Positions 136-64,000 of a stretch of DNA of 64,000 nt are shown one piece after another (the first letter of the stretch is position 1; every line of letters starts with the position of its first letter). The stretch spans positions 124,001 through 188,000 of the forward strand of contig CAMYOK010000007.1 in the NCBI GenBank assembly GCA_947259995.1, given 5' to 3'. The notes under the pieces were generated by a model. The model was not told the origin of the DNA, did no database searches, and was given only the letters and a program-made list of their open reading frames with translations. The stretch comes from an uncultured Pseudomonadales bacterium. GTDB taxonomy: Bacteria > Pseudomonadota > Gammaproteobacteria > Pseudomonadales > Pseudohongiellaceae. Both the position numbers and the translations under genes were made by a program.

Positions 136-2391
136 ATGCAGCACTCGCCCACCCCCGTCAGCAAACGTCTTGTTCTTTTAGGAGGCGGGCACAGCCATTT
201 AGCCGTGCTTATGTACTTCGCCCGCAATCCACTGCCGGGGCTAGACATCACGCTTATCTCTAAAGATATCGAGACGCCCTACTCCGGGGCACTTCCCGCG
301 TTCATCGCTGGGAGCGCTTCGCAAGAGGAGCTGTTTATCGACCTTCGCCCTCTTGCGCAGATGGCTGGGGTTCGCCTCATTCAAACCCAAGTGGAGACGA
401 TCGATCTCGAAACGAAAGCTATTCGTTGCCCCGATCGCCCCGCAGTCCTTTTCGACTACTTGTCGATCAATATCGGCTCTCGGCCTAACACATCACTAAT
501 ACCCGGTGCAGATGAGTTTGCATTGGCAGTTAAACCCATCCCGTTATTTCTAGAGCAATGGCAGGACCTGCAAGCGCAAGCAAAAGCGCAACTGAGCATT
601 AATATAGCGATTATCGGTGGCGGTCCGGCGAGCATCGAGATGGCCTGTGCCATGGCCCAAAGCCTGCATAAGCACGCGCAAGTACAGGCGCACATACACA
701 TCATCACACGTGCAGGCTCTGTACTTTCTGGTCATGGCAAGAAAGCCCAAGCCCTCGCCACAAATACGCTCGCCGCAAAGGGTATCTTGGTGCATACCCA
801 CAGCCACGTGAATCTAATCGACGAGTCTCATGTGCATTTTCAACAAAGCAGCAGCGGCGCTGTTAGCGAATCGCGCCTTGCGGTGGATTACAGCATAGTG
901 GCAACCGGTGCGAGCCCTGCTGGGTGGTTAAAACACACGGGGTTAGCCTTGGACGAGCAAGGCTTTATCCGCGTTAACGATCACTTGCAATCACTGAGCC
1001 ACCCTTTCGTGTTTGCTGCTGGCGATGTTGCGGCCATAGTGGGTCAGCGTCGCCCTAAATCTGGCGTTTACGCCGTGCGCCAGGGACCACCCCTCGCGCA
1101 CAATCTACGTCAATTCGCCCTAGGGGCTAGATTGAAATCTTATCAGGCGCAGCGCCAAGCTCTAGCCCTGCTGAGCATGGGTGAGGGGGTCGCTATCGCC
1201 TCGCGCGGCAGTTTCGCAACACAGGGGCGCTGGGTAGAGCGTTGGAAGACGTGGATCGATCACCGCTTCGTCAGCAAGTACAGCCAACTACCAGCAATGC
1301 CAGAAGATAGGTCTGGCACTCCGGATACCGAGACCGCTTTAAGCAAATCACCACGAACGCCAATGCGCTGCGCTGGCTGCGCAGCGAAACTGAGCAGTGT
1401 GAGCCTTGGTCGCGTCATCGCAGAAGTGCACACTTGTCACGGCGCGGACGTCTTGTCGGCTTTACATAGCACCGAAGATGCCTCCATCATTCAAATAGAT
1501 TCACAACGAGTACTCCTGCAAAGCGTCGACTATTTGCGCAGCTTCATTAACGACCCCTATCTATTCGCGCGCATCGCCAGCAATCACTGTTTGAGTGATA
1601 TTCATGCTATGGGAGCCTCGGCGCATTCGGCCTTGGCAATCGTCGGCCTTCCCCACGCGGCAGCCACCATCATGGAGGATCAGCTCGCGCAAGTGATGCA
1701 GGGCTGCACCGAGGTGCTCAATGCCCACCACACGACTCTTCTCGGTGGACACACGAGCGAGTCAGAGACATTGAGCTTTGGTTTAAGTGTCAATGCCTTC
1801 GCTGACCCGGCGAAACTATTACGCAAGACCGGCATGCAACGCGGAGACGTTCTGATCCTAAGCAAGGCGCTTGGCACTGGGACTCTCTTGGCAGCCGATA
1901 TGCGTCATCGTGCTAAACACCTCTGGATCAACGGCGCCTTGGCACAAATGCAACGCTCCAATCAGAGTGCTGCAGAGGCCTTTATCGCGCACCATGCGAC
2001 GGCATGCACCGACGTCACCGGCTTTGGTTTGCTTGGCCACTTGCGAGAAATGATCGGCACCGATGCTTACAATATCAGCCTACAAATCACTGCGCTTCCG
2101 CTGCTCGAAGGGGCGCTCTGGTGCATTGACAATGGCATACTCAGCTCGCTTCACCACGACAATGCCATCCATGCCAATTTGCTTAATAACGCTGAGCAGT
2201 TTCCGAATGATCCTAGAGTTGCACTATTGTTTGATCCCCAGACCGCTGGCGGTCTATTGGCCGCGGTCCCCAAAGCACATGCGCAGGCCTGTTTGGCCCA
2301 ACTGCATCGCCATGGCGACACGACGGCCGCATGTATTGGTACTGTCCAACAAATAGACGATTCCGACGCCACTATCACGCTCATAGAGTAG
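136..2391 (+). CDS. selD: FAD-dependent oxidoreductase fused to selenide, water dikinase (SelD)
   Basis: A 751-residue fusion. Residues about 10-380 are a pyridine nucleotide-disulfide/NADH dehydrogenase-like flavoprotein: the FAD-binding GGGHSHL is at 16-22, a second Rossmann GGGPASIEMA near 161-170, and an AAGD motif near 294-297. Residues about 408-751 are SelD, which makes selenophosphate from selenide and ATP. The catalytic Cys/Lys pair is C415 and K418 (GCAAK), with DVTGFGLLGHL and DPQTAGGLL further on. The active-site position is an ordinary Cys codon, not UGA, and the second cysteine of E. coli SelD is Ala here. Such fusions are known; the flavoprotein half may supply reduced selenium, which is inference. 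No selA, selB or mnmH is visible, so the end use (selenocysteine or 2-selenouridine tRNA) is unknown. The ribosome binding site is weak. Confidence 0.93.
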   Translation: MQHSPTPVSKRLVLLGGGHSHLAVLMYFARNPLPGLDITLISKDIETPYSGALPAFIAGSASQEELFIDLRPLAQMAGVRLIQTQVETIDLETKAIRCPDRPAVLFDYLSINIGSRPNTSLIPGADEFALAVKPIPLFLEQWQDLQAQAKAQLSINIAIIGGGPASIEMACAMAQSLHKHAQVQAHIHIITRAGSVLSGHGKKAQALATNTLAAKGILVHTHSHVNLIDESHVHFQQSSSGAVSESRLAVDYSIVATGASPAGWLKHTGLALDEQGFIRVNDHLQSLSHPFVFAAGDVAAIVGQRRPKSGVYAVRQGPPLAHNLRQFALGARLKSYQAQRQALALLSMGEGVAIASRGSFATQGRWVERWKTWIDHRFVSKYSQLPAMPEDRSGTPDTETALSKSPRTPMRCAGCAAKLSSVSLGRVIAEVHTCHGADVLSALHSTEDASIIQIDSQRVLLQSVDYLRSFINDPYLFARIASNHCLSDIHAMGASAHSALAIVGLPHAAATIMEDQLAQVMQGCTEVLNAHHTTLLGGHTSESETLSFGLSVNAFADPAKLLRKTGMQRGDVLILSKALGTGTLLAADMRHRAKHLWINGALAQMQRSNQSAAEAFIAHHATACTDVTGFGLLGHLREMIGTDAYNISLQITALPLLEGALWCIDNGILSSLHHDNAIHANLLNNAEQFPNDPRVALLFDPQTAGGLLAAVPKAHAQACLAQLHRHGDTTAACIGTVQQIDDSDATITLIE

Positions 2392-2496
2392 AGCATGCAT
2401 GAACGCCAGTGGCCCTTGCTATCCTCTTGCGTTATAGTCGCCTCTTTATTTTTACTGCCCGATATTAGGGCGATCCTGATTTTAGAGTCTCTATTC

Positions 2497-3183
2497 ATGA
2501 AAACACGCACAGCTGCACTTATTTTGATTTTCTTGACGGCCCTGCTCAGCTCTATTGCAATGCCAAGCCTTGCGCAGCCGCTAGCCCCTTCAGTCATTGA
2601 CCCAGAGCTTGCGGATCGACACTTTCGCCGAGGCAACACTTATAACAACCTTGAGCGCCTCGAAGATGCCGCCACTGAATATGAGCTTGCGATTACGGCA
2701 AATCCGAACCATTTAGAAGCCATACGCAACCTCGCCAACATCTATTATATTCAAGAGCGCGATGACGAAACTATTGCGCTTCTGCAACGCTATGTTGTCT
2801 TGGAAACAGAGCCCACTACGCCATTGGTCGCCTCCTTCAACACGCTCGCGCAGCTATTGCGCGACAACAAGCGTTTTGATGAGTCTATCGAGATTGATGT
2901 CTTAGCAATTGAGCACGACCCCGAGAACACCTCACAAGTGTTCATCATGGCAAATACCTATTTCAATGAGGACCTCACAGAAAGCGCGATACGCGTTTAC
3001 GAAACGGCTCTAACGGTCAATCCTAAAGACGCATTTTTGCACCGCTCACTGGGGCGCATGTATGAAGATATGGGAAGACTTGAAGACGCTTTGACGCAGT
3101 ACAAAGCTGCATCCGAGCTCGATATCGGATCACAGTTCTACCGCGATTTGGTGAATAATTTAGAGGCTAGACTCGCGCAGTAA
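2497..3183 (+). CDS. Exported tetratricopeptide repeat protein
   Basis: A 228-residue protein. The start is placed at ATG 2497 because it yields a clean signal peptide (MKTRTAALILIFLTALLSS, cleavage near SLAQ); a longer reading from 2395 would put 34 unlikely residues in front. The mature part is about five TPR units, with typical A/Y/P spacing (for example near residues 40-75 and 160-215), so it is probably a periplasmic scaffold for protein contacts. No enzyme motif is seen. It lies 106 bases after selD on the same strand, and its last 24 bases overlap the convergent aminopeptidase gene. The partner is unknown. Confidence 0.8.
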   Translation: MKTRTAALILIFLTALLSSIAMPSLAQPLAPSVIDPELADRHFRRGNTYNNLERLEDAATEYELAITANPNHLEAIRNLANIYYIQERDDETIALLQRYVVLETEPTTPLVASFNTLAQLLRDNKRFDESIEIDVLAIEHDPENTSQVFIMANTYFNEDLTESAIRVYETALTVNPKDAFLHRSLGRMYEDMGRLEDALTQYKAASELDIGSQFYRDLVNNLEARLAQ

Positions 3184-4224
3184 TGCGTCTCGCGCTTCAT
3201 AGGGCAGGGCTGCTATTTCTTGCACCGCCTTATAGAAGCGCGGCAAATCTCCTTGCGCTTGCGCAAGCAGCTGCACAAACGCTGGCACCAATTCGTTATA
3301 CGACGCCACAGTCGCAAGCTGGGCGTTGTTCAGCGGCCCCTCAAACCAGCGATCATATCCCGTATAGTCCCACTCTTGCCGAAACTGCGCATACTCTTCA
3401 CGCATAGCCGATTGCACTGCCTCTTTCTCTGCGCGCATCTGCTCATCGCTCATCGCTCGCCCGTAAAGTGTCGTCAATTGATCACGATATTTGAGCACTA
3501 AAGCGACAAAGGCGGCTTCGATTTTGGCTTGCGTCGCCAAGGCTTGATCGATGCCTTCCTGAGAGTTTGCCGCATACCAACGTCGCAGCCCCTCTTGCTC
3601 AACAAAGGTAGCGAAACTCTCATTGAAACGAGTGTCCCCTGCGACGTAGACCTTTTGATGGGCGAGCTCATGGAATATCAAGGCGACAAGGCGCTGCTCG
3701 GAACGGCGCAAAATGGCGCTATTCAAAGGGTCATTGAACCAGCCCAAGGTAGAATAAGCATCCACACCACCGCGATAGACATCGTAGGATTGCTGCATCA
3801 AGTTTTGCGCAAAGTCTATGGAGGCGGATTCTGAGAAGTACCCACGATAGGAGACACAACCTGCAATTGGGTAGCACCAATTCACGGCTTGTGTAGAAAA
3901 CTCTGGCGCCGCGAATACGTTCCAAAGCACATAGGGGCGGTCTAATTCTACATAGCTCAGGTAACTATCACCGGCGTCTAATTGCAAATGCTGCTCGGCA
4001 AAATCTCGCGCCAACAACACCAACTCTAGTTTCTGGCGGGTTTCGCTATCGAGCGCTGCGTCTGCGAGTAAGGCATCAATCGATTGCCTAGCCCATAATA
4101 ATGACACTTGCCCTTTTGCCGCCTGCCCGTAATAACTGACCGTCTCACAGGAGACCAACAACGCAGCGATTGCGCACAAACCCAGGCAGCGAATGGCAGT
4201 GCTAACACTGGACTGAGAAGTCAC
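3160..4224 (-). CDS. Predicted lipoprotein aminopeptidase (DUF2265/COG4324-like)
   Basis: A 354-residue predicted aminopeptidase. After a signal sequence with lipobox LLVSC it has the family hallmarks SYYGQAAKGQ, CYPIAGCVSYRGYF and a zincin-like HELAH, followed by FNESFATFVEQEG, where the downstream Glu would be a third metal ligand. I start it at GTG 4224: this codon overlaps the upstream gene's TAG by one base (TAGTG) and gives a compact lipoprotein signal. An ATG at 4269 would add 15 residues inside the upstream gene. It probably trims peptides at the outer membrane or periplasm. Coupling to the cyclotransferase suggests a shared role in N-terminal peptide processing. The peptidase assignment rests on family resemblance. 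Confidence 0.85.
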   Translation of the reverse strand: MTSQSSVSTAIRCLGLCAIAALLVSCETVSYYGQAAKGQVSLLWARQSIDALLADAALDSETRQKLELVLLARDFAEQHLQLDAGDSYLSYVELDRPYVLWNVFAAPEFSTQAVNWCYPIAGCVSYRGYFSESASIDFAQNLMQQSYDVYRGGVDAYSTLGWFNDPLNSAILRRSEQRLVALIFHELAHQKVYVAGDTRFNESFATFVEQEGLRRWYAANSQEGIDQALATQAKIEAAFVALVLKYRDQLTTLYGRAMSDEQMRAEKEAVQSAMREEYAQFRQEWDYTGYDRWFEGPLNNAQLATVASYNELVPAFVQLLAQAQGDLPRFYKAVQEIAALPYEARDALLRESSL

Positions 4225-5000
4225 TATTGCTCGAATAGCTTGAGCTTGATCTCGAAAATATCTGCCCATAACTTTCCTGTGACCAATAGCCGGCCCTGAC
4301 CATCTTCCTCTGCGCTCGGTATCCAGGCGATCCCGTTCAAGACTGCATCCCCGCCCCCCGTTCGGGTTTGATCGACCAAACCGTTTAGATCCACCACGCT
4401 ATTGATATTGCCGGTGACGGGGTCTATGCGGACAATCTCATTAGTCATCCACACGTTTGCCCACACCTCACCATTAATATATTCCAGCTCATTCAAATTT
4501 CTGATGGCACGCCCCGCTAAGGTCACCTCGACTTTGCGCTGCACTTGAAAGGTCTCTGGGTCAATAAATTGTAATGTCGCACTGCCATCACTTAGGATTA
4601 ATTGCTCACCATCCCAGGCCAGGCCCCAACCCTCTGTTGGGTGATAATGCGAAGTGACAGTAGCGAACGTGTCCAAGTCATAAACGAAAACGATATTGGA
4701 TTGCCATGTCAGTTGAAAAATCTGCTCACCGACAATGCTGATGCCCTCGCCAAAATAACGACTGGCAAGACGCTTGCTTTGCAACACGTTGCCATCTTCC
4801 AAATTAATTTTACTAAGCGTTGAGCGGCCTCTTTGCCCTGTTCCTTCATAGAGGAAGCCCTTATGGAACTCCAAGCCCTGAGTGAAGGAGCTTATGTTAT
4901 GTGGGAAACGGTCGACGATCTCGTAGTCGTAGATAGGCACTTGTGCAAGCACAGGCGATGACATGAAAAACACTAATGCTAATTTAATAAGCAATTTCAC
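4224..5000 (-). CDS. Glutaminyl-peptide cyclotransferase (plant/bacterial type)
   Basis: A 258-residue secreted protein with signal peptide MKLLIKLALVFFMSSPVLA and a beta-propeller of the glutamine cyclotransferase family. Recognisable motifs include FTQGLEF near residue 39, GTGQRGRS, GEGISIVGEQIFQLTW and the NLNELEYINGEVWANVW stretch. The enzyme converts N-terminal glutamine of exported peptides to pyroglutamate. It starts with GTG. The stop overlaps the aminopeptidase start by one base, so the two are probably translationally coupled. It is divergent from the TonB receptor gene across a 381-base gap. Confidence 0.9.
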   Translation of the reverse strand: MKLLIKLALVFFMSSPVLAQVPIYDYEIVDRFPHNISSFTQGLEFHKGFLYEGTGQRGRSTLSKINLEDGNVLQSKRLASRYFGEGISIVGEQIFQLTWQSNIVFVYDLDTFATVTSHYHPTEGWGLAWDGEQLILSDGSATLQFIDPETFQVQRKVEVTLAGRAIRNLNELEYINGEVWANVWMTNEIVRIDPVTGNINSVVDLNGLVDQTRTGGGDAVLNGIAWIPSAEEDGQGRLLVTGKLWADIFEIKLKLFEQ

Positions 5001-5381
5001 GATTGTTTCTGTTTCCCTGGGTAGTAGAAGGCTTGTTTTATCAGTCTTGGCGTCGGGGAGCTAAATTACGCTAGCTGACATTTGCAATCAAGTTCGACTA
5101 TCCGCGCAGTAGCAGATTTCTAAAATACATCATAGAAAACCTGCCAAGAATAAAATAATTTATCCCCTTCCCCCTCCAAGCCTCTCCCCCCAACATGCTC
5201 GCAAAGCGTCTGAAATCAAGCTTGATACGAAATTCGTCAGGATAGCGAATTTTAGAAGCCACATTTTTTTTGGCGGTTCGATTTTACTAAGGTATTCGGG
5301 AGACAAATTTGTATAGGCACGTACTATGGTCGGCGCAGTACGCTTTAATAATCACAATAATTAAGAAGTAGGAGACGATAG
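5001..5381. other. Divergent intergenic region with dyad symmetry
   Basis: This AT-rich gap separates the cyclotransferase from the TonB receptor. It holds a 7-bp inverted repeat, AAATTCG (5230-5236) and CGAATTT (5246-5252), and a 6-bp one, CGTACT (5320-5325) and AGTACG (5337-5342). Either could be an operator for the receptor. No convincing -35/-10 pair is seen. The receptor has a clear ribosome binding site, AGGAG, just upstream of its ATG. No small gene is supported. Confidence 0.4.
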
Positions 5382-8228
5382 ATGACACCATGTCTAGATG
5401 AGTGCGCGCGTCAAATTGCACGAAGATCCAAATTGTTCATTGCCATATCTCTCACCCTTTCTTCATCTCTCACTTTTGCTGCCGAAGCGGAAGAAGAGGA
5501 GGCAGAAGAAATCGTAGTCACAGGCTCGTATATCCGCAACAGCCCCTTTGCGGCAGCAAGCCCGGTAGATACTATTAACCAAGACAGTATTCTGGAAAGC
5601 GGTTCCGCTAATATTGGTCAATACATCCGCGACCTTCCCTACACTCAAAACGTAGATACCGTAGCCAACGTTCTAGGTGGTTCTGGTGGCGGGCAAGATT
5701 CTAACTCAGCGCAATTCAACCTACGCGGCTTGGGAACTAGTAGTACCCTGACACTTTTCGATGGTCGGCGAAATGTAAACCCAGGCGCTATCTCGGCTAT
5801 TTTGCCAGACATTGCGACCTCACGAATTGAAGTGGTCCTCGATGGCGGCTCAGCTCTTTACGGCGCAGACGCCGTTGCCGGTGTGGTGAACATCATCCCA
5901 ATCAAGGAGTTCGAAGGTCTACGAATTCGCTCCTTCTACAACCGCGATAATAATGCCGACTTCGAAGAACCAAAACTAAGCCTATTATACGGGCATCGCT
6001 TCGATAACCTCGACTTAGACATGGTCGCGGCCTTTGAAGTAGGCAAGAAAACCGCCTTACAACGTGGCGAGCGCGAAAAATACTTACGGGTAGACAATGC
6101 GACATTCATTGGTGCTCCCGGTACGTTTATTCGCGCCTCAGGCGACAATGCAGGTTCTATTTATCGCGACCAGGATTGTGGCACCTACAACGGTGACAAC
6201 ACCGACAAAGGGCAAGATGGCAGCTTCCCAAGCGGTTATCCGCTAGGGCCTGCGTTCTGCGGCTTCCATTATGCGCAGTGGACGGACTACAACCGCGAAG
6301 CGAATGACTACAACGGTTATCTGAACCTCAAGCACGAAACCACTGACTGGTTAACGCTAGAGTTTCAATCGACGATGAGCTACCGCGAGTCAATCTTCCA
6401 CACCGAGCCTTTAACCCCATTGGCCTCTGGTTGGTACCCCTCACTCGTGATCCCAGCCAACCATCCAGCAAACCCCACTGGAGTAGCTTTGATGCCGGGG
6501 CCAAACTGGACGATCATCAATGGCCTCGAACAAGGCCCTGGTGCCGTTCCAAGCTATCTTGACGGCGCCTCTTACCAGAAAGATCGCTATGGCTACACGA
6601 CCACTACAAACAAGTTTGGGGGCACTTATCAATTAGGTGACACTACTTGGACGGGGGAAACGTGGATTTCCTATCAAGAAGCTCAAACACGCCTCGATAC
6701 TAACGACTTGAACGTTGTGCGCCTGCGTGCAGGCCTTAACGGTCAAGGCGGAGTGAGTGGCAACGAATGGTTCAATCCCTTCGCCTCAAGAGACATCAAC
6801 TCTCCGAGCTATGTCGCCGGTGTTACCAATAACTCGCAAGAGTTAATGGACTGGTTGTTCGAGAGCGGCGATGTGATTTTCAACCACGAGCGTTTACGCT
6901 TAGTGGATTCGATCGTCACAGGTGAAGTCCTGCAGCTTCCTGCCGGGACCATGGCAGCGGCATTCGGTGCGTCTATTCGAGACACCCGCAACACGACTCG
7001 ACCTGCGCCATTGAACGCAGCCGGGATGAACGCATCGAGCTCGCAGGGCATATTGACCCCCGTTGGCGTTGTCGAAACATACGACTCCATGGTGAAGTCA
7101 GTCTTCGGCGAACTAGAGATTCCAATACTCGACAATTTGAGCATGCAGATCGCGGCACGCTACGAAGAGTTTGGTGACCTAGACCTCGACACCACGACGC
7201 CGAAAGTCGCCGTGCGATGGCAGCCCTTTGAAAGCATCTCGCTCAGAACGTCTTGGGGCGAAAGCTTCCTAGCACCGGCTGCTTCGCAGATCGGTGAGGT
7301 TAATCGTGATAACTGCGCGATTGCTCGTTCGGGCTCAGACCGCCTCACAGGTAACGACCTATTAGGCGTCCTGGTTTGTACGACTCGCAACCCTAGCTTG
7401 GAGCCAGAAACTTCGGAGATCTTCAACGCCGGGTTTACTTGGGAAGGCATCGAAGGGCTAACTGTTAGCATGGATTACCAGACAATCGAATATACCGATC
7501 GTATTATTCAGCTGTCTTCGCAAGACATTACTAACCAGCAATTCTTTGCAGCAATGAACGCATTGAACATCAACCCTTCTGACTACAGTTCAGCGCCTGG
7601 CTCTGCCACACGCGACCAAGCCCTTGCGTATATCGCTGCCAATCCATTGGCCAGCGCGACTCGCGATGCCGACGGCACATTGACGGAGTTATTGTCCGTT
7701 CCGGCCAACCTCAACTCAAACGAGCTAGAGGTCCTCGACGTCCGTGCCGTTTACGGTTTCGAGCTAGGTGACCTAGGTTCATTCACAGCAGCACTGGACG
7801 CCACATACTTTATGAAAGCAGAGTATCAAGGCTTAGAGGGTGTGACAGTGGATGCCTTGGGTAGAAGAAACGCTGATACGGCTCAGTCACCACCCTTGCC
7901 AAAAGTGAAGGCATCGGCACGACTGAGCTGGAACCGTGGCAACCACGCCGCTTCAGTGCTCACCAGATACCAACACTCAATCACGTTTGATGGCGCGTTT
8001 GCAACAGGCGCAACACCTCCAGAGGTGATCGACGCGGCGTATATCGTCAACTCGAACTACAGCTATTACTTCGATGATTTGTTTGGTACTGCCACCAGCC
8101 TAACATTTGGTATTAACAATATGTTTGACTGGGAGCCTCAACGCCTACCTGTTCAAGGTGGCTTTGAAACACGCCTATACGATAACTTTGGCCGACAATT
8201 CTTTGCCAGCATCGATATCGAGTTATAA
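5382..8228 (+). CDS. TonB-dependent outer membrane receptor
   Basis: A 948-residue receptor. The N-terminus is a long signal peptide (hydrophobic core IAISLTLSSSLTFA) followed by an acidic stretch and a TonB-box-like EEIVVTGSYIR near residues 42-53. The plug domain follows (SANIGQYIRDLP, NLRGLGTSSTLTLFDGRR, ALYGADAVAGVVNIIP), then the 22-strand barrel ending in FFASIDIEL, with a C-terminal aromatic/hydrophobic strand. It imports a large substrate with energy from TonB-ExbBD. The substrate cannot be read from sequence; this subfamily with an N-terminal IRNSP-like motif is common in marine gammaproteobacteria and is not diagnostic for siderophores. A lone exbD lies about 6 kb away, and a membrane AraC-type regulator follows directly and may control it. 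Confidence 0.93.
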   Translation: MTPCLDECARQIARRSKLFIAISLTLSSSLTFAAEAEEEEAEEIVVTGSYIRNSPFAAASPVDTINQDSILESGSANIGQYIRDLPYTQNVDTVANVLGGSGGGQDSNSAQFNLRGLGTSSTLTLFDGRRNVNPGAISAILPDIATSRIEVVLDGGSALYGADAVAGVVNIIPIKEFEGLRIRSFYNRDNNADFEEPKLSLLYGHRFDNLDLDMVAAFEVGKKTALQRGEREKYLRVDNATFIGAPGTFIRASGDNAGSIYRDQDCGTYNGDNTDKGQDGSFPSGYPLGPAFCGFHYAQWTDYNREANDYNGYLNLKHETTDWLTLEFQSTMSYRESIFHTEPLTPLASGWYPSLVIPANHPANPTGVALMPGPNWTIINGLEQGPGAVPSYLDGASYQKDRYGYTTTTNKFGGTYQLGDTTWTGETWISYQEAQTRLDTNDLNVVRLRAGLNGQGGVSGNEWFNPFASRDINSPSYVAGVTNNSQELMDWLFESGDVIFNHERLRLVDSIVTGEVLQLPAGTMAAAFGASIRDTRNTTRPAPLNAAGMNASSSQGILTPVGVVETYDSMVKSVFGELEIPILDNLSMQIAARYEEFGDLDLDTTTPKVAVRWQPFESISLRTSWGESFLAPAASQIGEVNRDNCAIARSGSDRLTGNDLLGVLVCTTRNPSLEPETSEIFNAGFTWEGIEGLTVSMDYQTIEYTDRIIQLSSQDITNQQFFAAMNALNINPSDYSSAPGSATRDQALAYIAANPLASATRDADGTLTELLSVPANLNSNELEVLDVRAVYGFELGDLGSFTAALDATYFMKAEYQGLEGVTVDALGRRNADTAQSPPLPKVKASARLSWNRGNHAASVLTRYQHSITFDGAFATGATPPEVIDAAYIVNSNYSYYFDDLFGTATSLTFGINNMFDWEPQRLPVQGGFETRLYDNFGRQFFASIDIEL

Positions 8229-8243
8229 GCGTTGCGCAGATGT

Positions 8244-8284
8244 TTGATACTCATGCCGCTTGTAGTTTCGGGCATGAGTATCAA
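8244..8284 (+). terminator. Perfect 14-bp stem-loop after the TonB receptor
   Basis: Arms 8244-8257 and 8271-8284 (TTGATACTCATGCC and its exact complement) enclose a 13-base loop 15 bases after the receptor stop. There is no T-tract, so it is more likely an mRNA 3'-end stabiliser or processing structure than a complete intrinsic terminator. Confidence 0.5.
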
Positions 8285-8392
8285 TCAGAAACACTTAATA
8301 GCAATCGTATTAATAATAAAAAAATGAATGTCTCGTGCCTATTCGTGACATCCAAGAGCGAACACATTATTGTGGTGGACCAAGATAGAGAC

Positions 8393-55271: not shown

Positions 55272-56030
55272 ATGAACCAAGATAAGCCCGTTGATCCACC
55301 CTCCTCGTCGCCTAGCGAGGCAACGGTGACGCCACCGCCTAAAGGTGGCTTCCTCGCCAATCTTGCGTTCAATATCGTCATCCCCGTGTTTATCCTCAGC
55401 AAACTTAGTGGCGATGACAGCCTTGGCCCTGCTCTTAGCATAATCGTGGCTTTAGCTTTTCCAATTGGCTACGGGCTATGGGATCTAAAACAGTCGGGAA
55501 AAGTAAACCCCTTTTCGATCCTCGGCATTGTCAGCGTATTTCTCACTGGCGGTATTAGCCTGCTAGAACTGGACCCGCAATATATTGCAATAAAAGAAGC
55601 CGCCATTCCCGCCATTATCGGCATAGCCGTACTCTTCACACAGCGAACGCGCTTCCCCTTAGTCAAAACGCTTATTCTTAACGCACAGCTAGTGCGCGTA
55701 GATGCCTTGTATGCAGCACTGGCGGATAATGGCAAAACAGAGATGTTCGAACGACGAATGGGTCAGGCGTCTTTCATTGTGGCAGGCTCATTCTTTGTGT
55801 CGTCAATCTTGAACTATGTGCTAGCCAAAATCATCTTGGTTAGCCCACCAGGCACAACACAATACAGTGAAGAATTAGGAAAGATGACAGCGCTGAGCTA
55901 CCCCGTGATCGCCCTGCCAAGCATGATCATCTTGATGTTAGCAATTTGGTTTGTGTTCTCTCAGATCAAAAAACTCACAGGCGAAAGCCTAGAAAGCTTC
56001 TTAGTAGACCAAGAAAAATCTTGCGATTAA
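55272..56030 (+). CDS. VC0807-family membrane protein
   Basis: A 252-residue membrane protein with a Pro-rich cytoplasmic N-terminus (residues 1-25) and about six helices. NLAFNIVIPVFIL, AFPIGYGLWDLKQSG and the later SYPVIALPSMIILMLAIW are typical of VC0807. Its role is unknown; some members are annotated as intracellular septation-like or MFS-like. It is convergent with the iron transporter genes. Confidence 0.82.
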   Translation: MNQDKPVDPPSSSPSEATVTPPPKGGFLANLAFNIVIPVFILSKLSGDDSLGPALSIIVALAFPIGYGLWDLKQSGKVNPFSILGIVSVFLTGGISLLELDPQYIAIKEAAIPAIIGIAVLFTQRTRFPLVKTLILNAQLVRVDALYAALADNGKTEMFERRMGQASFIVAGSFFVSSILNYVLAKIILVSPPGTTQYSEELGKMTALSYPVIALPSMIILMLAIWFVFSQIKKLTGESLESFLVDQEKSCD

Positions 56031-56040
56031 ACCCTAGTTT

Positions 56041-57087
56041 TTAGACTAAATTAAACGCAACAAGATGATCCATCTCAATATGAATCCCGATCATCTCACC
56101 TTGCGCGTGCCGATGATGACTCGGCACTAAGCTTAAGATTCGTGTTCCGTCGGCTAACTCTAAGGTATATAAATACTGCGAACCGCGGAAGGCTTTTTCG
56201 ATCACCTTTGCCGTGTTGCTACTATTATCGTCATGGATAACATCATCGGGGCGAATTAATACCATTACCGTAGTGCCCTGCTCATAGCCATGCGGCTGCG
56301 CGTCATCCAACATCCCCAATGCGGTTTCTACTCGATAAGCATCAACCGCCGTGCCATGAAGAAATACGCCCTCACCGACAAAATCTGCCACATAAGGATT
56401 GCTAGGCTGGTGATATAAATCAAAGGGCGAACTCCACTGCATCAACTCACCAGCCCGCATTACGCCAATCTCATCGGCCATCGCGAAAGCTTCAAACTGA
56501 TTGTGACTGACTAAAATCGCAGTGATGCCATCTTGCTTCAACACTTGCCGAATCTCACGTGCAATCTCTTCACGAAGTTCAACGTCAAGGCTCGCAAACG
56601 GCTCATCTAACAATAAGATGCGCGGCTTCGGCGCCATAGCGCGTGCTACTGCCACTCGCTGTTGCTGGCCTCCGGAAAGCCGGTGCGGATAGGTATGCAA
56701 GTACTCATGGATCTTCAGCATACGAGCAAGCTCTTCGACACGCTTATTTTTCTGTGCGCCGCTCATACCACTCAAGCCAAAGGCAATATTCTCCTTCACA
56801 CTCAGATGCGGAAACAGCGCATAATCCTGAAACACCATGCCCACTTGGCGCTTCTCTACTGGGAGGCAGCTCGACTGATTGCTGACCGCTTGCCCGGCAA
56901 TGCGAATCTCACCCTCTAAGGCTTTCTCAAACCCAGCGATGGCTCGCAGCAGCGTTGTTTTACCACAACCGCTTGGCCCCAAAAGGCAGCCAATCATTCC
57001 TTCTTGCAGCTGCATCGAAATGCCATGAACTATGACATTCCCTTCTAACGCAACTGCCACATCATTAAGTTCAAGTACTGGATTCAT
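56041..57087 (-). CDS. fbpC: Ferric iron ABC transporter, ATP-binding protein (FbpC-like)
   Basis: A 348-residue ATPase with Walker A GPSGCGKTT, the Q-loop FQDYALFPHLSV, LSGGQQQRVAVARA and LLLDEPFASLD, then a C-terminal OB-fold regulatory domain (about 235-348). The family is FbpC/PotA/CysA-like. Adjacent fbpB and fbpA-type genes mark it as the iron ATPase. It overlaps fbpB by 17 bases. Confidence 0.9.
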   Translation of the reverse strand: MNPVLELNDVAVALEGNVIVHGISMQLQEGMIGCLLGPSGCGKTTLLRAIAGFEKALEGEIRIAGQAVSNQSSCLPVEKRQVGMVFQDYALFPHLSVKENIAFGLSGMSGAQKNKRVEELARMLKIHEYLHTYPHRLSGGQQQRVAVARAMAPKPRILLLDEPFASLDVELREEIAREIRQVLKQDGITAILVSHNQFEAFAMADEIGVMRAGELMQWSSPFDLYHQPSNPYVADFVGEGVFLHGTAVDAYRVETALGMLDDAQPHGYEQGTTVMVLIRPDDVIHDDNSSNTAKVIEKAFRGSQYLYTLELADGTRILSLVPSHHRHAQGEMIGIHIEMDHLVAFNLV

Positions 57088-58777
57088 AACCTGGCCGGGA
57101 TTTGGAAATGGTTAAACTGAGAATAATAACAGGGATAATCCCCGCCAATACAATCATCAAGGCGGTGCTAGAGGCCTCTGCCAGGCGCTCCTGATTTGCC
57201 AACTCGTAAGTACGAATGGCTAGGGTATTAAAATTGAATGGCCGTAAGATCAAAGTAGCCGGCAACTCTTTCAAGACGTCCACGAAGACAAGTAGCGCCG
57301 CGGTTAACAAAGACCCTCTCATCACGGGAATGTGTACACGTCGCAGTATCTGCAGAGGGCGCAACCCTAATGAGCGCCCTACATCGTCCATCGTTGGTTT
57401 AATTTTACCCAATCCTGCATCGAGAGTATTCATCGACACAGGCAAAAAACGCACAAGATAAGCAAATACGACAGCCACTAGAGTGCCGCTAAACAACAGG
57501 CCAGTGCTGACATCAAAGCTCGCTCGCATCCAAGCGTCCAGCGTATTGTCAAACCATGCAAAGGGAATCAAAACTCCTACGGCGATGACGGTACCCGGAA
57601 TGGCATAACCCAAGCTCAGAACACGCACAATACTGCGCAGTATTAAGCCAGGACGTAGGCGTTTGCTATAAGTGATAAACAGGGCAAGTGCCAAAGCGAT
57701 GCCCGCGGTCACCGATGCGAGCTTTAGACTATTGCCAAAGAGGGTAAGAAAACTGGAGCGGTCCAACAGATCCCAGGTTTCAACAGCCCAAAGCGATAGC
57801 TGCACAAAGGGTATCAGGAAGCCTAACAGCACAGGTAGATAACAATAAACCATCGCACCCAAGCGTTTCCAGCCGCGCAACTCTATGCGCGGTAGTCGCG
57901 TATATTTATTGCTAGTGTGGTGGTAGCGTGCCTTGGCTCGCGACCAATGCTCGGCTAACACGAGCAATAAGATGAAGATCATCAAGACCGCCGCTAGTTG
58001 CGCGGCAGCGGTAGGACTGCCCAGACCAAACCAAGTACGGAAAATGCCAGAGGTAAATGCCGAAACCCCAAAGTACTGCACCGTACCATAGTCTGCTAAG
58101 GTCTCCATCAGGACTAATGACAGGCCAGCGATAATGGCAGGGCGCGCCAAGGGAATTGCGACGCGACTAAATGCTTTGAACGGGCTTGCTCCTAAGGTAC
58201 GTGACACTTCGAGCACGCACACCGATTGTTCGATGAATGCCGTACGCGTGAGTAGGTACACGTAGGGGTAAAGCACGAGCGAGAGCATGGTGATCGCACC
58301 GCCGACAGAGCGAATTTCTGGGAACCAATAGTCGCCATAACGCACATCGAAAGTATCTCTTATCCAGCTTTGTAAGGGGCCACCCACATCCAGCATGCCG
58401 GTATAGGTGTAAGCGATGATATAGGCAGGCATGGCGAGTGGCAGCACTAGTGCCCACTCTAGAATGCGACTGCCCGGAAACTTCGTCATCGTGACAAGCC
58501 AAGCAGGACCAATACCAAGCACGAGCACAGACAGACCCACGCCCACCATTAACAATGCCGATTGTGAGATGTAATCGCTAAGAACGGTATTCGCTAAGTG
58601 CTCCCATACCCCATCGCTACTGCTGAACACCGAGTAGAAAATAGTCAGAACAGGAATGCTGAGAACAAGACAGAGCAGCAGAATACTGAGCGTAAGGCCG
58701 TGCCCGGAGAATCGGGTCCTTAGAGACGACAAGGCCCCTTGCGGGGCCTCGGTAATAGTAGTGCTCAGTATGGGCAT
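57071..58777 (-). CDS. fbpB: Ferric iron ABC transporter permease (FbpB-like, fused double permease)
   Basis: A 568-residue permease with two homologous BPD halves, each with a cytoplasmic EAA-type loop (SRTLGASPFKAFSRVAIPLARPAI and GRSLGLRPLQILRRVHIPVMRGSL), about twelve helices in all, as in FbpB/ThiP-type permeases. The start is uncertain: ATG 58777 has no ribosome binding site, and codons about 10-16 lie in a strong hairpin (58732-58749) just after the fbpA gene. A TTG at 58732 is the only in-frame alternative before the first helix. Confidence 0.88.
   Translation of the reverse strand: MPILSTTITEAPQGALSSLRTRFSGHGLTLSILLLCLVLSIPVLTIFYSVFSSSDGVWEHLANTVLSDYISQSALLMVGVGLSVLVLGIGPAWLVTMTKFPGSRILEWALVLPLAMPAYIIAYTYTGMLDVGGPLQSWIRDTFDVRYGDYWFPEIRSVGGAITMLSLVLYPYVYLLTRTAFIEQSVCVLEVSRTLGASPFKAFSRVAIPLARPAIIAGLSLVLMETLADYGTVQYFGVSAFTSGIFRTWFGLGSPTAAAQLAAVLMIFILLLVLAEHWSRAKARYHHTSNKYTRLPRIELRGWKRLGAMVYCYLPVLLGFLIPFVQLSLWAVETWDLLDRSSFLTLFGNSLKLASVTAGIALALALFITYSKRLRPGLILRSIVRVLSLGYAIPGTVIAVGVLIPFAWFDNTLDAWMRASFDVSTGLLFSGTLVAVVFAYLVRFLPVSMNTLDAGLGKIKPTMDDVGRSLGLRPLQILRRVHIPVMRGSLLTAALLVFVDVLKELPATLILRPFNFNTLAIRTYELANQERLAEASSTALMIVLAGIIPVIILSLTISKSRPGYESST
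58732..58749 (-). promoter_or_regulatory. GNRA-tetraloop hairpin at the fbpA-fbpB junction
   Basis: On the minus strand AGGCCCC and GGGGCCT pair over a GCAA tetraloop, a very stable structure 57-74 bases after the fbpA stop. The T-run that follows is weak (TTGTCGTCT). It could attenuate transcription or protect fbpA mRNA, giving more binding protein than permease. Confidence 0.45.
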
Positions 58778-58805
58778 CGAACGGACGACTTACTCAATAA
58801 CGTGT

Positions 58806-59813
58806 TTATTTCCACCCCGCGCGGTCCATAAGACGCACAGCCTCGGCATTGTGAATGCCCAATTGATCCAAGGCTATATCATCTGCCTTAAATTCACCCC
58901 ATGACTTTAACACATCGCTCACGGGGACGTCTGCGCGCACTGGGTATTCATTATTAGTCTCAGCGTACCAATGTTGCGCTTCGTCGCTCACCAAGTACTC
59001 CATTAGGGCTACAGCTGCCTCTTTGTTTTTCGAGGCTTTAGTGACAGCAGCGCCACTGATGTTGATGTGCGCGCCATCAGTCTCTTGATCAGGCCAGAGA
59101 ACAGCAACAGATTCACCCGTTGCGCGCTCATCGGCATTGCTTGAGGTGAGAAGGCCGCCAAGATAGTAAGTGTTTACTAGCGCCAGCTTGCACTGACCGG
59201 CCTCGATCGCTGAGATTTGGTCGCGATCGCCGCCTTGTGGACTACGAGCGAAATTAGCCACCAGCCCCCGCACCCATGCTTCAGTCTGCTCAACACCATT
59301 ATGGCTTACCATAGACGCAACGAGTGACTGGTTATAGATATTAGAGGAGGAACGAACACAGACAGAATTGCGCCACATTGGATCGGCCAAATCAGCATAG
59401 CCACTGATTTGCGCAGGATCGACACGCTCCTTGTCATACACGATGACTCGTGAGCGCAAGGACATGGCGTACCAATACCCTTCAGAGTCGCGGTATTGCG
59501 CTGGAATCTCAGACTCTAACAGTGGCGAGCTAACGGCCTGCAAGACATCGGCCTCTTTGGCTCTGTGCAGACGACCAACATCGACCGTCAACAGCAAATC
59601 AGCTGGAGAATTTGCCCCTTCAAGAGACAATCGCTGGATCAGTTCATCTGCGCCGCCAGTCACCAAATTAATTGTCGTTCCAGTTTCTTGCGAATAGATG
59701 TCGAGGATAGGCTTAATCAGATTTTCCTGACGCGCCGAATAAATATTAACCTCGTCTGCTTGGGCCACTGAAACACTGATGAGGGTACCAAGGACTGTGA
59801 GAACTTTTCGCAT
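58806..59813 (-). CDS. fbpA: Ferric iron-binding periplasmic protein (FbpA/FutA-like)
   Basis: A 335-residue class II binding protein with signal peptide MRKVLTVLGTLISVSVAQA. The mature part opens with VNIYSARQENLIKPIL, the FutA/FbpA start, and has NTYYLGGLL, whose tandem tyrosines are the usual iron ligands. It would bring ferric ions to FbpBC. The ribosome binding site is AGGAG. The upstream region has a Fur-box-like sequence but no strong match. Confidence 0.9.
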   Translation of the reverse strand: MRKVLTVLGTLISVSVAQADEVNIYSARQENLIKPILDIYSQETGTTINLVTGGADELIQRLSLEGANSPADLLLTVDVGRLHRAKEADVLQAVSSPLLESEIPAQYRDSEGYWYAMSLRSRVIVYDKERVDPAQISGYADLADPMWRNSVCVRSSSNIYNQSLVASMVSHNGVEQTEAWVRGLVANFARSPQGGDRDQISAIEAGQCKLALVNTYYLGGLLTSSNADERATGESVAVLWPDQETDGAHINISGAAVTKASKNKEAAVALMEYLVSDEAQHWYAETNNEYPVRADVPVSDVLKSWGEFKADDIALDQLGIHNAEAVRLMDRAGWK

Positions 59814-59830
59814 GACGCTGCGCTCCTAAA

Positions 59831-59886
59831 AAGCTAAATGATGGGACATATCGATAGCTCAAATGATAATACATCGCATTTAGCTT
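59831..59886 (-). promoter_or_regulatory. Inverted repeat and weak Fur-like site before fbpA
   Basis: AAGCTAAATG (59831-59840) and CATTTAGCTT (59877-59886) are a perfect 10-bp inverted repeat 36 bases apart, the second arm on the minus-strand side being followed by T. Between them 59861-59881 starts AAATGATAAT and resembles half of a Fur box. The element could regulate fbpA or end the MFS transcript. Confidence 0.35.
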
Positions 59887-59933
59887 TACAATCGAAGTCA
59901 CGCGCAATTCGCTTGTCATAGCGCAAAGATTCA

Positions 59934-61253
59934 CTATTGCGGCGGCGAATCGACCTCCTCGTCCGGCTCGCCTGGCTCGTCGTACCCAAACGCCCGCTCC
60001 TGATCATGCTCGACATCTTCGCTTAACTCTTCATTACGAGGGTCTAGCTCTAAAGACATTGGGGTAGTGACGCCGGCAACAGCACGAAAGGGCTCTGTTT
60101 CATCGTGCACAGGCAATACATGCACTCGCCGACGTGCTGCAATGGCAAACGCAAACCCGCCCAAACAGATCACAGAGAAAATAAACAAACCACTCGGGCC
60201 AAACCATTGCATGAACAGGGCAGCGATAACGGAGCCAAGGGCAGAAAAGACGCCCATCGACAGCAGCATGACGCTACCCACCATGACGAAGTCTTCGGGC
60301 GCGGCACGGTCATTTGCATGAGCAAGGCTGATTGCATATTGAGTCATCACGCAGCCTCCCCAGAAGAATGCCAGCACGGCCAAACCCCAGCTGTCTAAGT
60401 CTGGAATCACCGCAAGAAGCGCCGATAAGATTAAGCCTATGATCGCGGTATAGAACAACACTAAACGCCTGTCATAGCGATCTGAGAGGCGCCCTATGGG
60501 TAACTGAAAGACCGCCCCGCCGAGCACAACCACACTGAGAAACATCGTGAGAGCTTGGGTATCGAGCCCAATCTCACGCGCATACAGCGGGCCAAGCGAC
60601 CAAAACGCCCCAGTCACCAGGCCCGTGGCGATAGCACCCGCGACCCCGACCTGTGACAAGTCCCAAACCTTGCGCAAGTCCACGCGCACTGTGTGAATCG
60701 GGGCCGGCGCTAAGGCTGTAGTGAGACACACCGGGATCAGCGCTAAGGACAGCAGCACGGCAATGACGATGAAGAGCGTCTGCCCTAGTGGGTCCGCAAG
60801 ATTGAGCATCTGCTGCCCTACCATGGTCATGCTCATGTTGATAACCACGTAAACAGACAATATGGTGCCACGAGTCTCAGATGTAGAACGCTCACTGAGC
60901 CAACTCTCAATGGTCATATAGAGGCCTGATATCGCTAAACCAACGGTAAAGCGTAGGAGCAACCAAACCAATAGCACAGGGAAGGAGTAGAACAATAAGA
61001 CCAGCGCCGAATAGCTAGTGGCAAGTATTGCAAAGCTGCGTATATGCCCCACGCGCCGCACCAACAGTGGCGTTAACAGACAACCGGACACGAAACCGAG
61101 ATAGTAAGTCGAGCCCATCATGCCGATTTGCCCGGCCGTAAAGCCGAGTAATTCCGCGCTCACGGGAAGCAGGGTCAGTTGTAGTCCATGACCAATCAAC
61201 AACAGCGCATCGGACAACAACAACGCTGCTACAGGTAATAACATTCTTCGCAT
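59934..61253 (-). CDS. Major facilitator superfamily transporter
   Basis: A 439-residue MFS protein with about twelve helices and the YfkF/UhpC-like motif A on the loop between helices 2 and 3 (GFVSGCLLTPLLVRRVGHIR). ESWLSERSTSETRGTILSVY in the N-terminal half is a feature of the YcaD-type family. The cytoplasmic C-terminus is very acidic (about 55 residues). Substrate unknown. The start is ATG 61253 or 61244; a reading from 61328 adds 25 unlikely residues. Confidence 0.87.
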   Translation of the reverse strand: MRRMLLPVAALLLSDALLLIGHGLQLTLLPVSAELLGFTAGQIGMMGSTYYLGFVSGCLLTPLLVRRVGHIRSFAILATSYSALVLLFYSFPVLLVWLLLRFTVGLAISGLYMTIESWLSERSTSETRGTILSVYVVINMSMTMVGQQMLNLADPLGQTLFIVIAVLLSLALIPVCLTTALAPAPIHTVRVDLRKVWDLSQVGVAGAIATGLVTGAFWSLGPLYAREIGLDTQALTMFLSVVVLGGAVFQLPIGRLSDRYDRRLVLFYTAIIGLILSALLAVIPDLDSWGLAVLAFFWGGCVMTQYAISLAHANDRAAPEDFVMVGSVMLLSMGVFSALGSVIAALFMQWFGPSGLFIFSVICLGGFAFAIAARRRVHVLPVHDETEPFRAVAGVTTPMSLELDPRNEELSEDVEHDQERAFGYDEPGEPDEEVDSPPQ

Positions 61254-61448
61254 TTGGTGAAGGATAGAGGAGCAACCACCGACTCTCAAGGGACAGAGCA
61301 CTTTCGCCGTGCGATAGTTGCACGTCAAGGCAAACTTCGCCCTCGACGAATGGAGCTTTTGGCCGCGACATAGCTCAATCTTTCTTTGTCACTTTGGAGT
61401 AAACTCATTAGGGCTTTCAGAATAATATGTCAGTACTCGGGGGAGTCC

Positions 61449-61964
61449 ATGATAAAAAAAATAAGCGCGTTTGCTCGCATCACAACGCTGAGCCTAACCG
61501 TCTGCCTAATGTTGGCATGCAGTGACTCAGGCACTACGCAAGTGAGTCCACTTAACACTGCCAACACCCAATACGATTTACAGCTGGATATGCAGGAGTA
61601 CATGAATCATGTGCTTGAACCTGTCGCTGACACCCTATGGGACTCCGCGGGATGGGTCGACGATATTCACACGGGCTATGAAGAGCTTTACCCAGAGACA
61701 GATGAGGAATGGTTAGCGGTTAAACATAAAGCGGCCCAACTCATTGAAGCGGGCAACTCTTTAGCGCTGCCCGGCCGCGCCGTCGATAATGACGGCTGGC
61801 TGACTTACACTAACGCCCTAAGCACTGCGGCAGCGTTCGCCTATCGCTCGGCCGAGACGCAGAACCAAGAGGATTTTTTCCAAGCTGGCGCGCAAATCTA
61901 TAGTGTATGTACCGCCTGCCATCAGACCTATAACCCCGACATTTCTCGCTTCGCTAGCGAATAA
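61449..61964 (+). CDS. Lipoprotein with a C-terminal haem c site (cytochrome c'-like)
   Basis: A 171-residue lipoprotein with lipobox LMLAC (cysteine at 24). The mature part is mainly helical and ends with a single haem-binding CTACH (154-158) 13 residues from the C-terminus. A C-terminal CxxCH on a helical bundle is the cytochrome c' / class II arrangement. It could carry electrons or bind a gas at the outer membrane. The start at 61449 follows GGGGGAG. It is followed 13 bases later by hupE. Confidence 0.85.
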   Translation: MIKKISAFARITTLSLTVCLMLACSDSGTTQVSPLNTANTQYDLQLDMQEYMNHVLEPVADTLWDSAGWVDDIHTGYEELYPETDEEWLAVKHKAAQLIEAGNSLALPGRAVDNDGWLTYTNALSTAAAFAYRSAETQNQEDFFQAGAQIYSVCTACHQTYNPDISRFASE

Positions 61965-61977
61965 TCGGGCCATAGCC

Positions 61978-62703
61978 ATGTCTTCAGTACGCGGCACAAA
62001 GCAGCACTCAGCCAATTTTCGTCTGCGCATCTTGTTCTTCGTGGTGGCGCTCTTTGCCCCGGCTGCCGTGTTAGCGCACACCATTGCAGGCACTGACGCA
62101 AACTATGTGCAGGCCATCGACGGCCCAGCAATAGCCCCGTTTCTGTATTTGGGCGCTAAACACATGGTAACGGGCTATGACCATCTGCTCTATCTTTTCG
62201 CCGTTGTATTCTTACTCTCACGGCCCTTGCAGGTATTGCAACTCGTTTCCCTATTCGCCTTAGGACACAGTATCACCCTTCTCAGTGGAGTATTGTTCAA
62301 GCTACAAGTGAACCCTTTTCTAATCGATGCCATCATTGGCTTTTCGATCGTGTATAAGACCTTCGAAAATATGGGCGGTTTTGACACGCTATCGCGATGG
62401 CACCCTAACACCAAACTCGCCGTCTTCGTTTTCGGTCTCTTTCATGGCTTAGGCCTCGCCACAAAACTACAGGCCTTCGAGCTCAGCCCCAATGGCCTGA
62501 TCGTGAATATATTGAGTTTCAATGTCGGCGTCGAAATCGGACAACTTCTGGCACTAGCTGCAATACTGCTCGTGCTCACTGTGTGGCGAACTCGCACGAA
62601 TGACTTTCAACAGGCATTCAAGATTAATACCGTCTTGATGGCCGGCGGTTTCTTATTAAGCTTTTATCAACTTAGCGCCTATTTTCTTGATACCCCTTAC
62701 TAG
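61978..62703 (+). CDS. HupE/UreJ-family membrane protein
   Basis: A 241-residue membrane protein. A hydrophobic N-terminus (about residues 15-35) looks like a signal or first helix ending in VLAHTI. The metal-transport motif H-x5-DH is present (HMVTGYDH), as are LGHSITLL, FGLFHGLGLA and FNVGVEIGQ. HupE and UreJ are secondary nickel/cobalt permeases. No hydrogenase or urease gene is nearby, so the metal is unknown. The start at 61978 is 13 bases after the cytochrome gene. Confidence 0.88.
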   Translation: MSSVRGTKQHSANFRLRILFFVVALFAPAAVLAHTIAGTDANYVQAIDGPAIAPFLYLGAKHMVTGYDHLLYLFAVVFLLSRPLQVLQLVSLFALGHSITLLSGVLFKLQVNPFLIDAIIGFSIVYKTFENMGGFDTLSRWHPNTKLAVFVFGLFHGLGLATKLQAFELSPNGLIVNILSFNVGVEIGQLLALAAILLVLTVWRTRTNDFQQAFKINTVLMAGGFLLSFYQLSAYFLDTPY

Positions 62704-62723
62704 TTTACTCACGGAGCAAGATC

Positions 62724-63281
62724 ATGGAATCTCAAGCCACTAGTCGACCCAACATTGCTATTGCCGCCAGCGTTGCGGCCAGTGGCGCTCTCATCGCTCT
62801 CTTTGTGGCAGTCCTACCTGCAGAGTTTGGCATCGACCCACTAGGTACAGGACGCGCTCTTGGCTTGCTCGATCTTGCCGATGCCAGTGCGAGCCCGTTT
62901 GAGAAGCACGAGCAGGCGCACAAGGTCGATCGTACGGAGTTCATTCTGGAACCTTTCCAGTCGGTCGAGTACAAATATTATCTGCAAGAAGGCAATACAA
63001 TGCTGTTTTCCTGGACAGCCAACGGCGATCTCGTGTTCGACATGCATGCTGACCCAGATGGGATGGTAGGGGAAGAAGGGGTCGAGAGTTACGAGCAGAC
63101 TACCGGTAGCGGCAGCGCTGGGGTGTACCATGCCAATTTTACTGGCATTCATGGGTGGTTCTGGGAAAATCAAAGCTTCGACGAGGTGACGGTCCGGCTC
63201 GAGAGCGCCGGTTTTTATGAACGCTCTGTAGTGTTTCGAGACGGGGGCAGTTTCGAGCGAGACCTAGCCCCCGTCTTCTAA
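62724..63281 (+). CDS. Membrane-anchored beta-rich protein ("transmembrane anchor" type)
   Basis: A 185-residue protein with one N-terminal helix (about 12-35) and an exported domain of beta strands (EFILEPFQSVEYKYYLQEGN; LVFDMHADPDG; FERDLAPVF). Proteins like it are often encoded next to hupE-type genes in metal-resistance regions, which suggests a shared complex. It has no enzyme motif. It has a GGAG-type ribosome binding site and lies 20 bases after hupE. Confidence 0.78.
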   Translation: MESQATSRPNIAIAASVAASGALIALFVAVLPAEFGIDPLGTGRALGLLDLADASASPFEKHEQAHKVDRTEFILEPFQSVEYKYYLQEGNTMLFSWTANGDLVFDMHADPDGMVGEEGVESYEQTTGSGSAGVYHANFTGIHGWFWENQSFDEVTVRLESAGFYERSVVFRDGGSFERDLAPVF

Positions 63282-63307
63282 TGCTTCTTTGTGAGCTCTT
63301 GCCTTGC

Positions 63308-63748
63308 TTATCGCTCGTTAGGATCCGAACCATCGGGTGGAGCGCCAGTTCCCGACGACCCCATAAACAATTTACGGCCATCAGGGAAGGTGATATCCCG
63401 ACCATTGCCTCGGCACTCGGGCGTGCATAAACGGTCTTTACTCTGATATCCCGTCACCAAGATCTCGGTTCCCAACTGTAGAGAGTTGCGATTGATCCCA
63501 CGACGCAGAAGTGTATTGGGCGTGCCGCCCTCAACCATCCAAGGTTGCTCAGTGCCATCCTCATTGGTATGCATCAAGTGGATCCAAGAATGCGGATTTA
63601 TCCACTCCACTCTAATGATAGGCCCGCGCAATGAGATCGGTAAATTAGCATCGAATTCAGCTGAAAATGCATGGTGCGCAGATGCCGACATCGAAATCGC
63701 TGCCATCCCCCCTACTAGCGCCGCCGACAGAATATATTTTCTTTTCAT
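63308..63748 (-). CDS. DUF6152-family secreted protein
   Basis: A 146-residue secreted protein. A signal peptide (to about SASA, residues 20-24) is followed by HHAFSAEFDANLPISLRG and VEWINPHSWIHL, the DUF6152 hallmarks. A C-terminal CTPECRGNGRD holds a CxxxC pair, and histidines at the mature N-terminus might bind metal. The role is unknown. It converges on the anchor gene. The ribosome binding site is GGGGAG. Confidence 0.85.
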   Translation of the reverse strand: MKRKYILSAALVGGMAAISMSASAHHAFSAEFDANLPISLRGPIIRVEWINPHSWIHLMHTNEDGTEQPWMVEGGTPNTLLRRGINRNSLQLGTEILVTGYQSKDRLCTPECRGNGRDITFPDGRKLFMGSSGTGAPPDGSDPNER

Positions 63749-63836
63749 TATTACTCCCCGTTACGTTAATTCAAAAACTCGACATCAGTTTTCATCTTGG
63801 CCGAAAGGTTCAGATGCACGTCCTTTTTCAACCCTT

Positions 63837-64000
63837 TCAAGCATTAATTTTTTCAACAAATTCGCCACACTTGAATTGAACTAGCCCAATGCCTTGTTCG
63901 AGACGATCAGAGATATTGGCGGAACGCTGCTCGGAGGCGGCTGTAGCAATGCCAGTCAAAGCTGCACACGCGTTTGAGCTCAAGATTAGCGCGGCTAGGC
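63837..64000 (-). CDS. Partial gene at the window edge, hypothetical exported protein
   Basis: The window ends inside an open frame on the minus strand; 53 residues are visible before the TGA at 63837. The visible part includes a hydrophobic stretch (LAALILSSNACAALTGIATAA) and ends LVQFKCGEFVEKINA. It may be the end of a short exported protein upstream of the DUF6152 gene. No family is recognised. Confidence 0.4.
   Translation of the reverse strand, partial: LAALILSSNACAALTGIATAASEQRSANISDRLEQGIGLVQFKCGEFVEKINA

Follow-up and report, generated by a model that had tools for sequence, protein, structure and literature searches.

A conserved four-gene cluster of the Pseudohongiellaceae that joins a HupE-type permease to a c-type cytochrome and probably handles a transition metal

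We analysed a 64,000-nucleotide window of bacterial DNA, part of contig C7 of a 3.46 Mb Pseudohongiellaceae genome (93% complete), for a cluster of genes encoding a lipoprotein c-type cytochrome, a HupE-type permease, a membrane-anchored protein (here called the anchor) and a DUF6152 protein (Table 1). All four genes claimed in the original prediction, which had been made from the sequence alone, were found at their places using sequence and Pfam analyses. The gaps within the plus-strand trio of cytochrome, HupE and anchor were 13 and 20 bases, with DUF6152 on the minus strand, in agreement with the proposed tight operon and convergent fourth gene. The description of the cytochrome as a lipoprotein with a single haem c was likewise borne out by a lipobox cysteine (C24) and one CXXCH motif, and the claimed lack of a hydrogenase or urease gene held beyond the window, across the whole of the host genome at its 93% completeness. 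No riboswitch, for cobalamin or otherwise, was matched with Rfam at window positions 56000–64000, and comparison of 41 sequences upstream of the cytochrome for a shared operator gave promoter-like words only, with no recurrent dyad.

Table 1. Genes and sequence features of the cluster, in positions of the window.
Feature	Position	Strand	Remarks
Lipoprotein c-type cytochrome gene	61449-61964	+	171 aa; PF01322 match weak
CXXCH haem-binding motif	61908-61922	+	cytochrome residues 154-158; invariant
HupE_UreJ_2 permease gene	61978-62703	+	241 aa; PF13795
His34 of HupE	62077-62079	+	predicted mature N-terminus
HX5DH metal-site motif of HupE (His62 to His69)	62161-62184	+	invariant
Membrane-anchored protein (anchor) gene	62724-63281	+	185 aa; one N-terminal hydrophobic helix
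GOLD-like extracytoplasmic domain of anchor (residues 64-172)	62913-63239	+	fold match
DUF6152 gene	63308-63748	-	146 aa; PF19649; convergent with the other three
His25-His26 of DUF6152	63671-63676	-	predicted mature N-terminus

The permease was the most readily classified of the proteins, with a PF13795 match of 167.9 bits (gathering score 24.5, E 1.8e-49) in which the profile begins at residue 55. Ahead of that point, His34 was invariant in 42 of 42 HupE orthologs and always preceded by A, G or S; among wider HupE frames, a His after the signal peptide was found in 79 of 80 using a stricter pattern. Within the permease proper, H62, D68, H69, H97 and H156 were invariant in 42 sequences, and H62, H69 and H97 follow each other at steps of 7 and 28 residues, the same spacing as that of His194, His201 and His229, which have been modelled as a metal site of an Ang-2-HupE/UreJ-2 protein (PMC12537917). 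An N-terminal His is a hallmark of the metal-binding ‘anglerase’ domains carried by HupE/UreJ-2 permeases, which bind Cu2+ at 74 nM and Ni2+ at 220 nM and have been proposed as metal feeders of their permease (PMC12537917). The cluster thus shares with the anglerases the Pfam permease, the predicted mature N-terminal His and the three-His spacing, and in both cases a beta-sandwich periplasmic domain is tied to the permease. The two differ, however, in their architecture: in anglerases the domain precedes the permease in the same chain and itself bears the N-terminal His, whereas no anglerase-type beta-sandwich lies ahead of the cluster HupE, where the permease bears the His and the partner domain forms a protein of its own, anchored in the membrane (C-terminal in fusions), accompanied by a cytochrome and DUF6152. 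The HupE/UreJ proteins of hydrogenase and urease operons, together with the cyanobacterial cobalt transporter HupE (PMC7689651), also carry a motif of the HX5DH type in their first permease helix and belong to the same HupE/UreJ superfamily, but the cluster protein differs in matching PF13795 instead of PF04955, in its partner proteins and in being encoded in a genome lacking hydrogenase and urease.

For the anchor there was no Pfam match and no PDB sequence match. Its AlphaFold2 model (pLDDT 88.8) displayed a helix at residues 8–35 and a beta-sandwich at about 64–172, of which the best fold matches were the GOLD domains of p24 proteins (7rrm: Z 11.8, 1.9 A over 93 residues), with other GOLD domains likewise at the top of the list. 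As this concerns a predicted model at 9% sequence identity, the likeness would be one of fold only, and we claim no kinship. The anglerase structure 9GCE was not among the listed fold matches, which carries no weight either way. Among 86 anchor domains, separate or fused, H108 was present in 86 and H143 in 85, with E82, W97, G141, G144, W145, N149 and G163 in nearly all and D106 in most. The anchor was searched for across the class and the phylum, which gave a sample of 56 loci, in 53 of which it adjoins HupE or shares its frame; these included 23 single-frame fusions, counted as stop-to-stop reads, having the extracytoplasmic domain of the anchor at the C-terminus of HupE, and all the fusions included in our tree formed one clade. 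A single case of an anchor–cytochrome fusion was also found, on the Rhizorhabdus wittichii plasmid pDC01 (CP021182.1, locus L297 5176-6378), where, inside a metal-resistance island, the two proteins share one frame of 342 aa counted from its Met; HupE immediately precedes it, and its neighbours include a PF02583 metal repressor, an MFS exporter and two CusA/CzcA pumps. Domain fusions usually mark physical partners. Judged from adjacency and fusion, the anchor is very likely the periplasmic partner domain of HupE, which leaves its role less open than in the original prediction, where it had no known one. HupE–anchor pairs without a cytochrome are common, and the cytochrome is therefore dispensable for core function.

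The PF01322 (cytochrome c') match of the cytochrome covered the C-terminal part only and scored 17.6 bits, below the gathering score of 26.5. A full-length profile–profile comparison with true cytochromes c' using hhalign gave a weak match (probability 30%), leaving homology over the full length doubtful. A C-terminal CXXCH is common to this protein and to cytochrome c' and related four-helix cytochromes; the cluster cytochrome differs from cytochrome c' in scoring below the Pfam cut-off and in having a Met that never varies in the region of the first predicted helix. That residue, M52, was invariant together with the lipobox C24 and the CXXCH motif across 25 aligned orthologs, and its position was aligned as Met also in the distant homologs examined, which suggests a Met/His-ligated six-coordinate haem rather than a five-coordinate one.

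DUF6152 scored 106.8 bits with PF19649 (E 6e-31), well above the cut-off of 27. All 39 complete orthologs had the pattern AxA|HH, and with 71–92% identity it was the most conserved of three proteins aligned in the same way. Going by the predicted signal cleavage sites, mature HupE and mature DUF6152 should each start with an invariant His. Sequence searches gave no solved relative of DUF6152, and its model, of low confidence (pLDDT 69), was OB-like, with OB-fold proteins topping the fold list at Z of about 6, which we take as a hint only. Our literature search gave no paper naming either DUF6152 or DUF6488, the latter a His-rich family met with at related loci, as described below.

The original prediction had proposed conserved co-occurrence of the four genes as a check, which the cluster passed when followed through the host family (Pseudohongiellaceae/OM182). 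Cytochrome matches at E ≤ 0.001 were found in 130 of 137 family genomes, those in genera g2, g3 and g7 being weak or partial only. We sampled 40 family loci around strong orthologs. Cytochrome, HupE and anchor were adjacent in every one, DUF6152 was present in 38 and convergent in all of these, and all four genes were kept in order and orientation in 38. Of 80 named loci, 73 had the complete set of four; among the seven that did not, five were located near contig ends. The neighbourhood was thus retained while its flanks changed, with genes for an fbpAB-type iron ABC transporter upstream in several genera and other genes in the large genus g8. The four-gene cluster of these aquatic bacteria is genuine and strongly conserved, in an arrangement far beyond chance.

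Some features of the surroundings deserve mention in their own right. In the host, the fbpAB-type genes are found upstream of the cluster at window positions 57071–59813; we considered them as part of the unit and rejected this, as they accompany it only in this genus and some others and not in g8. In nearly all relatives, DUF6152 is followed by a fifth gene, encoding a lipoprotein of about 300 aa without a Pfam match. The host lacks that gene and shows no readable trace of it (window 63749–64000; locus L011 1750-2153), though the closest relative (L042) retains it. In some relatives (L056, L065, L067 and L081), the opposite strand encodes a further CXXCH cytochrome, divergent in sequence, in the space from anchor to DUF6152.

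Outside the family the genes were found in several partial combinations. An order-wide sample revealed the cytochrome in two further families, with some loci there having cytochrome–HupE–anchor without DUF6152, others cytochrome–anchor with HupE a few kb away, and still others cytochrome, DUF6152 and the lipoprotein without the HupE–anchor pair. In another class, family f252 (probably sphingomonads, as judged from plasmid matches) had the trio next to several copies of the lipoprotein at two loci, and a third locus had the order RND–HupE–anchor followed by MFS–cytochrome–HupE–anchor. On a Novosphingobium humi plasmid (L298 1897-6390), a cytochrome of this family has DUF6152 and two DUF6644 genes for neighbours but no HupE.

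HupE–anchor pairs as such were often found in a heavy-metal context. In the collection searched, the HupE-linked ‘transmembrane anchor protein’ family is represented on about 375 plasmid records, and plasmid pairs stood either behind TolC–HlyD–CusA/CzcA genes or by DmeF and metal repressors. The RND operons of this kind on plasmids of Shewanella, IncC Salmonella and Acinetobacter have homologous HupE and anchor genes in the same order, but the cluster studied here has no adjoining RND pump, repressor or His-rich protein, having the cytochrome and DUF6152 instead. The host itself carries a second HupE–anchor pair behind CzcCBA-type RND genes (locus L010, G000:C14:18000-32000, 647-8377), in an operon that includes a His-rich small protein and with a MerR-type regulator nearby; the two HupE copies are 53% identical and the two anchors 26%. 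Sampled fusion loci adjoined DUF3240, DUF6488 and His-rich proteins, with RND genes adjoining two of them within the short stretch examined; at L273, L242, L252 and other fusion loci, the HupE–GOLD fusions were flanked by DUF3240 (P-II-like) and the His-rich DUF6488. The RND-linked relatives point to nickel or cobalt more than to copper. We conclude that the cluster, which is chromosomal and vertically maintained, derives from a metal-permease pair and has gained a partner with haem and a periplasmic protein with His-His.

Taken together, transition-metal handling at the inner membrane, with the aid of a haem partner, is the probable task of the cluster. From the gene order, conservation, domain fusions and invariant residues, all directly seen, we infer signal cleavage, metal binding, complex formation, a redox step, and transport in one or the other direction. 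We consider the best explanation, at a probability of about one half, to be an inner-membrane transition-metal handling complex of HupE, anchor, cytochrome and DUF6152. HupE would be the permease, with cleavage of its signal peptide placing His34 as the mature N-terminus at the periplasmic mouth, where it could capture the metal and pass it on to an intramembrane site of His62, His69 and His97. The GOLD-like anchor would provide a detachable periplasmic domain over that mouth, with the conserved D106, H108 and H143 as candidate ligands, and the lipoprotein cytochrome may dock on this domain for electron exchange upon metal capture or release, such as Cu(II) to Cu(I). As a soluble partner in the periplasm, DUF6152 would carry the same metal on the His-His at its mature N-terminus. 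The more specific proposal of a redox-coupled permease, with the cytochrome acting via the GOLD-like domain to reduce or oxidise the metal, probably copper, at the HupE/UreJ-2 mouth and the N-terminal His-His protein as periplasmic carrier, we regard as tentative. The literature that we searched contained no haem-coupled transporter of the HupE type.

One alternative is a unit for nickel/cobalt homeostasis, in which HupE and its GOLD-like partner would move Ni/Co to a sequestering pool or to the periplasm, as in Ni-resistance clusters, with the cytochrome being a bystander or a periplasmic redox gauge and not a metal reductase. HupE/UreJ proteins are Ni or Co transporters (PMC7689651), in Sphingobium ba1 the gene most strongly induced by nickel was a HupE/UreJ gene within an RND–NreB cluster (PMC5557971), and related pairs sit with DmeF, NreB-like MFS proteins and metal repressors. 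Against this, searches of the host genome (93% complete) gave no match for urease alpha, Ni-SOD, CobN or [NiFe]-hydrogenase, and urease, Ni-SOD and CobN are rare across the family, whereas the cluster is near-universal. Service to one of these usual Ni or Co enzymes is therefore unlikely. Furthermore, no resistance pump adjoins this copy of the cluster, and the conserved cytochrome and DUF6152 would be left unexplained, so that we find the nickel/cobalt reading possible but rather doubtful. For this version of the cluster we lean slightly towards copper and away from Ni/Co, as the usual Ni/Co enzymes are missing from the host and a cytochrome is required only where the metal is redox-active; we estimate copper at 45%, Ni/Co at 35% and other metals at 20%.

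The neighbourhood might alternatively consist of two units under shared regulation, namely a HupE–anchor metal permease pair beside a periplasmic redox unit of cytochrome, DUF6152 and the lipoprotein of about 300 aa that serves another pathway. Each half does occur without the other elsewhere, and DUF6152 is on the opposite strand, but it is the cytochrome, and not DUF6152, that lies within the tight operon of HupE in 40 of 40 family loci. With trios lacking DUF6152 in other families and another class, and with one anchor–cytochrome fusion, such a division seems unlikely. As regards the original proposal of an undescribed metal-handling or metal-sensing module, its first half was well supported by the conserved neighbourhood, the RND and Ni/Co-resistance context, the fusions and the N-terminal His residues. 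The second half, implying control of gene expression by metal or redox state, would suit envelope proteins having possible metal and haem sites, but the conserved cluster contains no sensor, kinase, anti-sigma factor or other regulator, no operator-like dyad recurred, and few cytoplasmic residues precede the helix of the anchor in the AlphaFold2 model; we hence consider sensing highly improbable.

Fusion and neighbourhood data thus tie the cytochrome and DUF6152 to the permease–anchor pair, and two uncharacterised families gain testable roles. If the inner-membrane metal-handling complex is true, haem redox chemistry would be added to a metal permease family thought to be single-component.
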